The position numbers and the translations under genes were made by a program. Below, one piece after another: positions 58,598 through 61,875 of a stretch of 64,000 nucleotides of DNA. This DNA is from Hydrogenovibrio halophilus DSM 15072 (GTDB taxonomy: Bacteria > Pseudomonadota > Gammaproteobacteria > Thiomicrospirales > Thiomicrospiraceae), in contig NZ_KB913033.1 of assembly GCF_000384235.1 (NCBI RefSeq), forward strand, positions 248,001 through 312,000, read 5' to 3'. Under the pieces are notes generated by a model, which saw only the letters and a program-made list of their open reading frames with translations, searched no databases and was not told where the DNA came from. Numbering within the stretch: the first letter of the stretch is position 1; each line of letters begins with the position of its first letter.

Positions 58598-59320
58598 TCA
58601 TGCGGTTTCGGCTTCAACAAAATCACAAAGCTGCTCCATCTCGTGAATGCGTACTTCGCGTTTTTTCCAGCTCATCCAGCCATAGCGATGAAATTTGCCC
58701 AGAATGCGGGAGACGGTCTCAGGGGTTAAGTTGAGATAATTGGCCAGATCGCGATGCAAAATGTTCAGCCGAAACTGCAAATGCTCATATCCCCGTGCCC
58801 GATACTTACTCGACATGCTCAGGAAAAATTGGGCAACACGTTGTTCGGCCGTTTTCTGGGTCAACATGCCAGCATGAACCCGACCGGAAAGAATTTCCTG
58901 GCTCATCAATCGGATCATCTGATCCATCAGGCCCGGCACCTTTTTCTGCAGATCGCCCAGTTGAGCGTAGGGCAAAGCACAGACGGTGGTGGTGTCCAGG
59001 GCCACCGCGTTAAACACGTGTTCGCCGCTGGCGATGGCTTCCAACCCGATAATGTCCCCAGGAAGATAAAAGCCCTGAATCATTTCCTGGCAACGTTCAT
59101 TGAAGGCATAGACCTTGACCATGCCCGCACGGACCGCATAAAGATGATGGAAGTTGTCGCCCTGTGAAAAAACACTGTCGCCTTTCATAAACGACGGCAA
59201 ATGGGCGACCACCGGATCAAGCTGGCTGAAGTCGGACTCATACAGACTCGAGGCAAAGCACACCCCCTGCAAAGCGCACTGAGCACAGCTTGCGGAATGA
59301 TTCGGCATTTGACGAGTCAC
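58598..59320 (-). CDS. fnr: FNR-type oxygen-sensing regulator
   Basis: Global regulator of anaerobic genes with an oxygen-labile [4Fe-4S] cluster. With a GTG start at 59320 (GGAG 7 bases upstream), the 240 residues place cysteines at 12, 15 and 21 (CAQCALQGVC) and a fourth in TTTVCALPY, matching E. coli FNR spacing (20, 23, 29, 122). The HTH recognition helix LTPETVSRILGKF keeps E..SR. The ATG at 59308 lacks a ribosome site. The gene faces the kinase-Rieske gene across a 543-base gap. Confidence 0.9.
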   Translation of the reverse strand: MTRQMPNHSASCAQCALQGVCFASSLYESDFSQLDPVVAHLPSFMKGDSVFSQGDNFHHLYAVRAGMVKVYAFNERCQEMIQGFYLPGDIIGLEAIASGEHVFNAVALDTTTVCALPYAQLGDLQKKVPGLMDQMIRLMSQEILSGRVHAGMLTQKTAEQRVAQFFLSMSSKYRARGYEHLQFRLNILHRDLANYLNLTPETVSRILGKFHRYGWMSWKKREVRIHEMEQLCDFVEAETA

Positions 59321-59565
59321 ATGAAGTCTCCATAGGTCATTCCTCCATGATACCAAAATCCAGCGAACGGCTGGCGAAGCCTGGTCGCTCATCCCCCTTG
59401 AAAAATTAATCTGCCAATAAGTTTTTTTGAGATACCGCCGTCAACCGGGTCGTTTCATTTTTGAAAATTGGGGTTCTTGCTCAGAATGATTAAAATTTAA
59501 GCAATGTATCAAAGCACAACGATATTAAAGGATTTAGCCACGTTTAAAACGGTTCATTCACAGAC

Positions 59566-59588
59566 TTATCCACAGGTTCTGTGGATGA
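59566..59588. promoter_or_regulatory. Inverted pair of DnaA boxes
   Basis: TTATCCACA at 59566-59574 (perfect DnaA box), 5 bases, then TGTGGATGA, whose complement TCATCCACA differs by one base. It lies in the AT-rich 543-base gap 59321-59863 between fnr and the kinase gene. The remainder of the gap holds AT-rich sequence (including TTAAAATTTAAG) and a promoter at 59766. No gene is seen in it. Confidence 0.55.
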
Positions 59589-59765
59589 CTATTTTATGAC
59601 ATCGAAGGCACAAGCCACCAAACAAAAATCATGTTTAACTAACATTATCAATTACTTAAATAGACTCCCTATAAAACAAGTGAGCAAAAAAATCTAATCG
59701 CCCATAATATCCTGTCAAGTGTTTTTTCAACTTATTCACCCCGGCTTTCTCCCTCTGCACTAGCC

Positions 59766-59792
59766 TTGACAAACGCCAGCTTATGCTAAGAT
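59766..59792 (+). promoter_or_regulatory. Sigma-70 promoter of the kinase-Rieske gene
   Basis: TTGACA (59766-59771), 15-base spacer, TAAGAT (59787-59792) with an extended TGC before it; 71 bases before the ATG. Confidence 0.62.
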
Positions 59793-59863
59793 AGGCGCAA
59801 TTTTTCTGTTTGCATACAAACCTTGAAACAGATATCAAGGTCTCGTACAAGAGGATTCCACCT

Positions 59864-61069
59864 ATGGCAAAAATACTCGGCATTGGTAACTGTGTGCTCG
59901 ACATTGTTCTGGACACTGAGCACTACCCACAGGAAGATGCGGAAATCCGTGCAAGCACACGGACCTTCAAAGTGGGCGGCAACGTCGCCAACAGTCTTTA
60001 TGTGCTCGACCAGCTTGGCCATAAAGCCAGCCTGGTGACGTCCGTCGGTGGTGACAACGAAGCCAGACAGCTGAAACAGGGACTGGAAGCGCGACGAATC
60101 GATGCGACCCACACCCAACGTTTTCTGCAGGGGGCCACGCCAACCTCATACATTCTGCGAAACCGGGAAACCGGCAGCCGCACGATCACCCATTACCGAG
60201 ACCTGCCCGAAGTCAGTTTTGATTTTTTTGCCAAAGTTGAAATTGAAAACTGGGACTGGTTGCATTTTGAGGGCCGCAACATGCCCCATCTGCCGGGGAT
60301 GCTGAACATTGCACGCACATTTTTGACGCATCAACCCATTTCCCTGGAAGTGGAAAAACCGCGTGACGGCATTGAGGCGGTGTTTGAACAGGCGAATCTG
60401 GTCATTTTTTCCCACCATTATGCGCAGGCAAAAGGCTACGAAGACGGGGCCGCCCTGTTAACGGCCCTGGCCCCTTCCCTGACACAACAGCATCTGGTTT
60501 GCACCTGGGGCAGCCAAGGGGCCTGGTATAAAGCGGCTGGCGAAACCCAAGTCGTTCACCAGCCTGCCAATCCGATTGATCAAATGGTGGACACGCTCGC
60601 GGCAGGCGACACGTTCAATGCCGGGCTCATCGATGCCATGATCGGTCAGGCATCTCTGGCCGAAGCCGTCAAAAAGGCTTCGGATCTGGCAGCCCACAAA
60701 TGCCAGAAAGCCGGTCTGGACGACCTGCTGGCCCCGATTGAATCCCCCAAGCCGCTGGCCAACCGCCACGCAATCAGCCAGGCCAAGGTGACCATTGTTC
60801 CGGCCTCCAAACTGGCCCATTCCGTGATTCTGATTGCCGATGGCGATGGGATCAAAGCGTATGAAAACAACTGCCCGCATCAGGATGTGCCCCTGAACGA
60901 AGCCTATAAAGTGGACGTCAATCCGTTTGAAAAAACGATGAAGTGTTCGGTGCACGACGCCTTTTTCAAAATTGAAAACGGCGAATGCGTGGACGGCCCC
61001 TGCTTGAACGAATCGCTCAAACCTGTGGCCATTCGAGTAGAAGAAAACGGAGACATTTACCTGGCTTGA
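59864..61069 (+). CDS. PfkB-family sugar kinase fused to a Rieske-type [2Fe-2S] domain
   Basis: Residues 1-300 form a ribokinase/PfkB fold: NCVLDIVLD, GGNVANSL (38-45, substrate site), and TLAAGDTFNAG with catalytic Asp249. Residues 305-401 are a Rieske ferredoxin domain with C-P-H (Cys337, His339) and CSVH (Cys361, His364), so both cluster motifs are intact, with 21 residues between them. GGNVANSLYVLDQLG and the SEVGGD-like TSVGGDNE segment resemble ketohexokinase. ATG 59864 follows GAGGATTCCACCT. The junction (about 296-310) has no stop or frameshift. A PfkB kinase and a Rieske domain in one chain is not an architecture I know. Substrate and redox partner are unknown. Confidence 0.85.
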   Translation: MAKILGIGNCVLDIVLDTEHYPQEDAEIRASTRTFKVGGNVANSLYVLDQLGHKASLVTSVGGDNEARQLKQGLEARRIDATHTQRFLQGATPTSYILRNRETGSRTITHYRDLPEVSFDFFAKVEIENWDWLHFEGRNMPHLPGMLNIARTFLTHQPISLEVEKPRDGIEAVFEQANLVIFSHHYAQAKGYEDGAALLTALAPSLTQQHLVCTWGSQGAWYKAAGETQVVHQPANPIDQMVDTLAAGDTFNAGLIDAMIGQASLAEAVKKASDLAAHKCQKAGLDDLLAPIESPKPLANRHAISQAKVTIVPASKLAHSVILIADGDGIKAYENNCPHQDVPLNEAYKVDVNPFEKTMKCSVHDAFFKIENGECVDGPCLNESLKPVAIRVEENGDIYLA

Positions 61070-61077
61070 TCGGGGGA

Positions 61078-61827
61078 TCAGGACCGACGCTGGCGAACCG
61101 CCTCATACAGGGTCACGCCCGCAGCAACCGAAACATTGAGACTGTCGACCAGGCCCGCCATCGGAATGGCGACCAGAAAGTCGCACTGCTGGCGCACGCC
61201 CTGTCGCAATCCTTTGCCTTCGGCCCCGAGCACCAGCCCGGTCGGACCGGTCAAGTCTTGATCGTACAAGGTCTGCTCGGTTTCTCCCGCCAGACCGGTC
61301 ACCCACAGTCCGATTTTACGGGCCTCACCAATCGCACGCGCCAGGTTGGGCACCACAACCAGATCCACGGTTTCGGCAGCACCACTGGCTACCTTTCGAA
61401 CGGTGGCATTCAACCCGACCGACTGGTGCTTGGGAATCACCACCGACATCACCCCTGTGGCATCCGCCGTCCTTAAAATGGCCCCCAGATTATGCGGGTC
61501 CTGAACCTCATCCAAAAACACCACCAGCGGTGCCTGACCCTGTTCGATGCACTCAGCCAGCTGCTTCATCCACTGTGCAGGCGTGGTGGGCGTTTTCGCG
61601 ACCACTTCGGCCACAATGCCCTGATGCACCGCATCGCCAGGCAAACGCGACACCTGCTGCTTGAAGCCATTGGCATCACAACGAACCCCTAACGCCTGCG
61701 CCTGATCCAACAGCTTTTTGAGGCGGGCATTGGGACGAGGTTGGGCTGACAGGGTAATAATCGACTGAGGCGACTGTTTCAACAGCGTCTCAACCGCATG
61801 CAGGCCGTAAAGCAACTGGGAAGCCAT
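61078..61827 (-). CDS. rlmB: 23S rRNA (guanosine-2'-O-)-methyltransferase RlmB
   Basis: Methylates G2251 of 23S rRNA. The 249 residues have an N-terminal L30e-like substrate domain (LLYGLHAVETLL) and a SPOUT domain with DPHNLGAILRTADATGV, TGLVLGAEGKGLR and VDSLNVSVAAGVTLYEA, the trefoil-knot SAM site. ATG 61827 is chosen because CGGA precedes it by 8 bases. Convergent with the kinase-Rieske gene, 8 bases apart, and downstream of rnr, the usual order. Confidence 0.92.
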   Translation of the reverse strand: MASQLLYGLHAVETLLKQSPQSIITLSAQPRPNARLKKLLDQAQALGVRCDANGFKQQVSRLPGDAVHQGIVAEVVAKTPTTPAQWMKQLAECIEQGQAPLVVFLDEVQDPHNLGAILRTADATGVMSVVIPKHQSVGLNATVRKVASGAAETVDLVVVPNLARAIGEARKIGLWVTGLAGETEQTLYDQDLTGPTGLVLGAEGKGLRQGVRQQCDFLVAIPMAGLVDSLNVSVAAGVTLYEAVRQRRS

Positions 61828-61842
61828 TAGGGTCATCCGTTC

Positions 61843-61875
61843 ATAAACAAAACCCTTTGTCAGAAACAAAGGGTT
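61843..61875 (-). terminator. Terminator between rnr and rlmB
   Basis: Minus strand AACCCTTTGT stem (61851-61875), TTCTG loop, ACAAAGGGTT, then TTGTTTATG. The T-run is interrupted, so termination may be partial and rlmB may still be co-transcribed. Confidence 0.6.

Follow-up and report, generated by a model that had tools for sequence, protein, structure and literature searches.

A single gene of Hydrogenovibrio halophilus encodes a ketohexokinase-like sugar kinase and a Rieske [2Fe-2S] domain in one protein chain. The fusion is genuine, both of its sites are intact, and it is carried throughout the order to which this bacterium belongs. In other families the same kinase is frequently found beside a separate Rieske gene, and the fusion appears to have arisen there anew. 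Tuning of the kinase by the redox state of the Rieske cluster is tentatively favored below as the role of this arrangement.

The Fusion Gene and Its Two Domains

The gene lies on the forward strand at positions 59864..61069 of the window, the 64,000-nucleotide stretch of contig NZ_KB913033.1 that was analyzed. It starts with an ATG at 59864, ends with a stop codon at 61067–61069, and specifies 401 amino acids. An earlier, sequence-only reading of this DNA had proposed a single 401-residue frame with a PfkB and a Rieske domain at this location, and the open reading frame and Pfam results agree with it. A TTG-started extension of the frame to 59810 exists as well; 13 aligned homologues start at the same ATG as 59864, their starts having been placed from the match.

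Pfam results, solved relatives, and residue mapping delimit a PfkB, ketohexokinase-like kinase domain at residues 1–290 (59864..60733, + strand). The Pfam PfkB match itself (PF00294) covers residues 1–286 with an E-value of 1.1e-35 and 123.9 bits, compared with a gathering score of 25.8. The Rieske domain occupies residues 318–383 (60815..61012, +; PF00355, E 1.7e-9) and likewise scores above its gathering threshold in the 401-residue frame. Both kinase motifs singled out in the earlier reading, GGNVANSL and AAGDTFNAG, are present in the translation, and the four Rieske ligands it listed (Cys337, His339, Cys361, and His364) were placed correctly. The first ligand motif, Cys337-Pro-His339, is encoded at 60872..60880 (+) and the second, Cys361-x-x-His364, at 60944..60955 (+). 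Located 3′ of the latter is a family-specific Cys375-x4-Cys380 pair, within a GxCxxGPC motif at 60986..61003 (+).

Conservation in the Order

The fusion was matched in all 62 genomes of the order. In 60 of these, the match runs from residue 1 to residue 399–401 in one open frame with no internal stop, and identity among these copies ranges from 45 to 100% (the window's own copy counted in). A separate scan of genome contigs yielded 14 loci, including 13 full-length relatives at 55–79% identity from Thiomicrospira, Thiomicrorhabdus, Piscirickettsiaceae, and other MAGs, plus one Rieske-only locus from Marinomonas. A phylum-wide search at E 1e-30 matched 2 of 398 genomes, one of them the window's own.

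Only two copies in the order are broken. One matches over residues 1–369 and then continues in another frame, with the change near residue 362–369 (G020:C1:788351-789546). The other consists of two pieces, covering residues 1–75 and 74–400, with one in-frame TAA and a break near residue 75 (G034:C180:8569-9763). A sequencing error that merged two genes had been named as the circumstance under which the fusion would be spurious. These broken copies point in the opposite direction, and since the fusion is matched in every one of the 62 genomes, in 60 of them from end to end, with 13 full-length relatives coming from several named organisms and MAGs, the fusion is neither chance nor a merger error. 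That explanation is rejected and is almost certainly wrong. The homologue survey that had been suggested as a check thus finds the same fusion present throughout the order.

Identity of the Kinase

The best solved relatives of the kinase domain are ketohexokinases (E 7.8e-43, with residues 3–288 aligned). Sulfofructose kinase comes next (E 1.2e-18), and ribokinases are far weaker. Among the best 25 of 26 matches to NCBIfam kinase families, none reached its cut-off; the top match was ribokinase, with 79 bits compared with a required 299.65. A search for literature on bacterial ketohexokinases gave nothing relevant among the matches listed.

Residues were mapped onto human ketohexokinase (KHK) in an alignment of 110 rows, of which 12 represent the order and 98 other families. 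KHK residues D15, G41, N42, R108, R141, and K174 are kept in 110 of 110 rows, N45 in 109, and D258 also in 109, with a gap in one row. Six of these, D15, N42, N45, R141, K174, and D258, correspond to D13, N40, N43, R138, K165, and D249 of the window protein, which make up the kinase pocket and its catalytic aspartate (all within 59864..60733, +). The D15A, N42A, and N45A substitutions are reported to inactivate KHK-A and changes at R141 or K174 to lower its activity, while D258 is regarded as the base (PMC11332825).

By sequence, the kinase is classed as a ketohexokinase relative. With KHK as its closest solved relative and the residues of the ketose pocket conserved, the kinase is likelier to act on a ketose, for example fructose, than on ribose or adenosine, and phosphorylation of a ketose at C1 is the best prediction.

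The Rieske Domain and Its Family

The Rieske alignment comprised 73 rows, drawn from 36 loci of the order (some genomes being represented twice), the Marinomonas locus (L034), and 36 kinase-linked loci of other families. The first ligand motif is present in 73 of 73 rows and the second in 71 of 71 untruncated rows. C375 and C380 are as invariant as the ligands, occurring in 71 of the 71 untruncated rows. Two rows are without the second ligand motif: L117, which is cut by the end of its contig, and L159, in which the Rieske frame ends early. Both were dropped from the Rieske tree, yet they were counted as pairs. A second set of sequences, to which 21 stand-alone relatives belong, displayed the pattern CxH...CxxHxAxF....GxCxxGPC in 63 of 64 rows. 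The CX4C family as a whole was detected in 143 of 369 genomes of the class at E 1e-12. The tree of the Rieske sequences (64 rows, 95 columns) is poorly resolved, and the fused label requires four changes on it. The 21 Rieske genes examined that are unlinked or kinase-free (L034 plus 20 regions) are found in varied surroundings.

The nearest solved Rieske relatives are distant, the best profile E-value being 2.5e-6. Nine of the 12 listed are oxygenase ferredoxins, one is titled simply “Ferredoxin”, and two are of the cytochrome b6f type. In Rieske proteins of the bc1/b6f type, disulfide-forming cysteines sit in CTHLGC and CPCHGS motifs. The window protein reads CPHQDV and CSVHDA at these positions and has neither cysteine, and in this respect it differs from a cytochrome bc1/b6f-type Rieske protein. 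We take the missing cysteines to suggest a low-potential, ferredoxin-like cluster. In one alignment, the GPC of the window Rieske domain falls opposite the GP of a Rieske protein of the b6f type; judging from the structures of such proteins, C380 is presumably located in the loop over the cluster. Judged by its sequence, the Rieske part is a cytosolic Rieske ferredoxin type belonging to an uncharacterized family with an extra CX4C pair.

These affinities bear on one account of the fusion, in which the Rieske part donates electrons to a third enzyme, one that is unlinked and works on the sugar phosphate made by the kinase or on its product, and the fusion only keeps the steps together without any gating of the kinase. 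The predominance of oxygenase ferredoxins among the nearest solved relatives speaks for it, as do weak, sub-threshold NCBIfam matches of the Rieske part to oxygenase ferredoxins, and it is common for genes of a shared pathway to be paired or fused. Against it, the window's genome has no match to Ring_hydroxyl_A (PF00848) at E 0.001 and, with two Rieske domains in total, only one other than that of the fusion, presumably the respiratory one. An acceptor of the ring-hydroxylating class was thus not found, and a role as ferredoxin for a ring-hydroxylating oxygenase was rejected. Furthermore, the recurrent gene neighbors in other families, of which one or two examples apiece were scanned, do not resemble a sugar-pathway oxygenase, with the exception of a DAO-type FAD oxidoreductase found next to certain Rieske-free kinases. 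Electron transfer to a third enzyme is a possible role, though less likely than not.

Kinase–Rieske Pairing in Other Families

A class-wide sample of 369 gammaproteobacterial genomes provided 98 such kinases outside the order (E up to 2.3e-41), including one weak, long-branch kinase (L161) that was retained. All 98 loci were taken with as much as 6 kb of flanking sequence per side, contig permitting. A Rieske domain is fused to the kinase in 5 loci, directly downstream on the same strand in 30, and directly upstream in one. The other 62 loci have none, four of them with less than 450 bases of contig downstream. Across the 1,086 open reading frames called in the 98 loci, the 36 Rieske loci (>25 bits) contain a single Rieske match each, and it is always adjacent or fused.

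Simple open reading frame calls give a 4-base overlap at the junction in five loci (L075, L076, L088, L144, and L146) and a gap of 0–21 bases in another five (L069, L070, L135, L124, and L064). In three genomes (G063, G418, and G197) the alignment runs through one in-frame stop, and these look like near-fusions. On a kinase tree obtained by quick search, the presence of a Rieske neighbor requires 19 changes and the fused state three, at least two of which are forced by well-supported branches. By this quick tree, fusion seems to have arisen more than once, about three times. The pairs, near-fusions, and repeated changes on the tree indicate that the fusion unites partners frequently found in each other's company. 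Its retention in the order and its reappearance in other families make it probable that the two parts belong together, and they may well cooperate.

At the level of whole genomes, the Rieske family (E 1e-12) occurs in 60 of 102 genomes with the kinase versus 83 of 267 others (p 1.5e-6, ancestry ignored), and 42 of the 102 kinase genomes have no family member at this threshold. When the 40 linked cases are set aside, the family is found in 20 of 62 kinase genomes versus 83 of 267, with no excess.

The 62 of 98 kinases lacking a neighboring Rieske gene keep the same pocket, which is the reason that the Rieske part looks auxiliary to the kinase and outside its catalysis. These partner-free relatives suggest that catalysis does not need the Rieske domain. 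A search for kinase positions that separate Rieske-linked from unlinked members (those of the order being left out of the linked set) found none that was convincing. The same relatives bear on an ATP-coupled redox machine, in which ATP use by the kinase domain would power the movement of electrons into or out of the cluster. One chain does combine an ATP-binding active site with a cluster, but a pure ATPase would have no need of the conserved ketose pocket, and Rieske-free relatives have the same site; such a machine is highly improbable.

A further account has the Rieske domain serving a structural purpose, carrying a cluster, or acting under stress, in each case independently of the kinase; the two genes would have become neighbors and then fused without shared function. 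The kinases without a Rieske neighbor are consistent with this, as are the frequent occurrence of the Rieske family alone (it is present in 83 sampled genomes that lack the kinase) and the lack of a clear imprint of the partner on kinase sequences. It fits poorly with the strict adjacency or fusion of all 36 Rieske matches in the 98 loci, with the repeated appearance of pairs in many families and some three origins of the fused form, and with retention of the fusion in all 62 genomes of the order. An unrelated role is accordingly considered improbable.

Other neighbors vary. A pentapeptide-repeat cluster gene adjoins a Rieske-free kinase in 12 loci (L083, L080, L100, L101, and others), and a DAO-type FAD oxidoreductase cluster gene does so in eight (L133, L073, L084, and others), one example of each having been scanned. 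Simple open reading frame calls are noisy in GC-rich loci; for this reason, neighbors besides the kinase, the Rieske gene, and the large protein discussed next are described only and do not serve as evidence.

A Large Upstream Protein in Other Lineages

In 17 of the 98 loci, the kinase is preceded by a match to a large protein, which ends less than 500 bases upstream of it. Twelve of these match both the N- and C-terminal parts of the protein and five the C-terminal part only. Domain scans of two examples (L159:1392-6491, − strand, and L103:874-5949, + strand), each about 1,700 amino acids long, revealed two cNMP-binding domains, a rhodanese domain, and a C-terminal FGE-sulfatase-type domain, with weak SMC coiled-coil matches in one of the two as well. 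The protein is more common where a Rieske gene is linked (12 of 36 loci versus 5 of 62; p 0.002, ancestry ignored). Two stand-alone Rieske genes, in L177 and L180, also follow a match to the large protein, and the L180 protein has rhodanese- and SMC-type matches and no FGE-type match. Three short, weak matches were all that the window's genome produced, and the large protein is absent from it. The upstream protein hints at signaling in the lineages that carry it and says nothing direct about the window gene.

Genomic Neighborhood and Host Genome

The fusion gene lies between two neighbors that are outside the system. An fnr-like regulator gene (58598..59392, −), assigned by Pfam and containing a Cx2Cx5C motif, scores 202 bits for NCBIfam Fnr, compared with a cut-off of 228. 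It diverges from the fusion gene across a shared intergenic region (59393..59863). On the other side is rlmB, encoding a 23S rRNA methyltransferase (61078..61869, −; NCBIfam TIGR00186, 232 bits, cut-off 160). Nine loci of the order with flanking sequence have pepN, pal, and fnr ahead of the fusion gene in nine of nine cases and rlmB and rnr behind it in eight of nine; the neighbor labels were carried over from the window's genes, and that of rnr is presumptive. The fnr gene thus belongs to a conserved block, pepN-pal-fnr / kinase-Rieske / rlmB-rnr.

The earlier reading had pointed out the position across from fnr, the oxygen regulator; a link to Fnr found no support. The FNR box is TTGAT-N4-ATCAA, and no such box with up to two mismatches occurs in 59393–59863. 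Boxes were found upstream in 20 of 36 related loci compared with a mean of 18.3 in shuffled sequence, which is no excess; at least five genomes are represented twice among these loci (e.g., L002/L021), four loci have less than 500 bases upstream, and the shuffles preserved base composition only. Control of the fusion gene by Fnr was therefore rejected. A different palindrome, TTGATNNNNATCAA, occurs 77 times in the whole window with up to two mismatches, compared with 42.5 expected (none of 100 shuffles was as high), and is not found upstream of the fusion gene.

Four PfkB matches are present in the genome: the fusion gene, HldE and a ThiD-type kinase (both above curated cut-offs), and one further kinase. 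None of the four reaches the 1-phosphofructokinase cut-off. The best sub-threshold names of the fourth are 5-dehydro-2-deoxygluconokinase and fructokinase. Its gene adjoins one with a sub-threshold match to sucrose-phosphate phosphatase (L187:472-2358, near 1476249 in the genome), suggesting sucrose metabolism. As fructokinase-like and sucrose-phosphate-phosphatase-like genes adjoin, free fructose from sucrose turnover is conceivable.

A Proposed Model of Redox Tuning

Redox tuning of the ketose kinase by its Rieske cluster is the most likely single account, if still a tentative one; electron transfer to a third enzyme ranks second and an unrelated role third. According to the model, a ketohexokinase-type kinase would convert ATP and a ketose to ketose-1-phosphate while tethered to a cytosolic Rieske ferredoxin, with which it often shares an operon. 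The two would have originated as a co-expressed gene pair that was fused by loss of a stop codon. Electrons would pass between the cluster and the pool in the cytosol, and the redox state of the cluster, perhaps together with the Cys375/Cys380 pair, would tune the kinase domain such that ketose phosphorylation follows redox state. We infer the substrate, the cluster potential, the contact between domains, and the gating itself. An AlphaFold2 model built with 14 sequences had a pLDDT of 65 and a pTM of 0.45, and Foldseek placed KHK first among its matches with a TM score of 0.37 and an rmsd near 12; the model is too poor to draw any inference on domain packing.

A more sweeping version would be a hitherto unrecognized redox-sugar control module of Gammaproteobacteria, in which a Rieske cluster of the new CX4C family would switch ketose phosphorylation by a ketohexokinase-type kinase; the large cNMP-binding/rhodanese/FGE protein would serve this module in other lineages, and in the Thiomicrospira group it would be built into a single chain. 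This module is doubtful.

If redox tuning is correct, a Rieske cluster would act as regulator of a metabolic kinase instead of as a respiratory or oxygenase electron carrier, and a Rieske-based switch would be added to carbon metabolism. If the cluster does not tune the kinase, the fusion would point to a further electron-transfer partner of a ketose pathway. Either way, conservation across the order, Thiomicrospira and Thiomicrorhabdus included, combined with the recurrent pairing means that a single purified protein would suffice to test for a functional link.

Comparison with Known Systems

Each half of the protein is of a known kind, and the combination is new in that no description of a Rieske–kinase fusion or pair was found among the matches listed from open-licence papers. 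With ketohexokinase (PDB 9p6q, 2hqq, and 3nbv), its best solved match, the window protein shares the PfkB family and the six pocket and catalytic residues. It differs in being bacterial, in having a C-terminal Rieske domain, and in that its ketose substrate is a prediction. Sulfofructose kinase YihV (PDB 7ag6) is likewise of the PfkB ketose kinase type and is a weaker match than KHK (see above); unlike the window protein, its 306-residue chain has no Rieske domain.

On the Rieske side, the ferredoxins CarAc, BphF, and T4moC of toluene-4-monooxygenase have the CxH...CxxH ligands and the small, soluble type in common with the window domain, whereas the latter is distant from them in sequence, contains the invariant CX4C pair, and is fused to a kinase.

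A precedent comes from plants, where the fructokinase-like proteins FLN1 and FLN2 are associated with thioredoxin z, FLN1 being a PfkB-type protein tied to this redox partner (PMC3409070). As described there, these are separate proteins of a plastid transcription complex whose contact is thiol-based and involves vicinal cysteines (PMC3409070). The window protein, in contrast, is one chain that combines a Rieske cluster with an intact ketose site.
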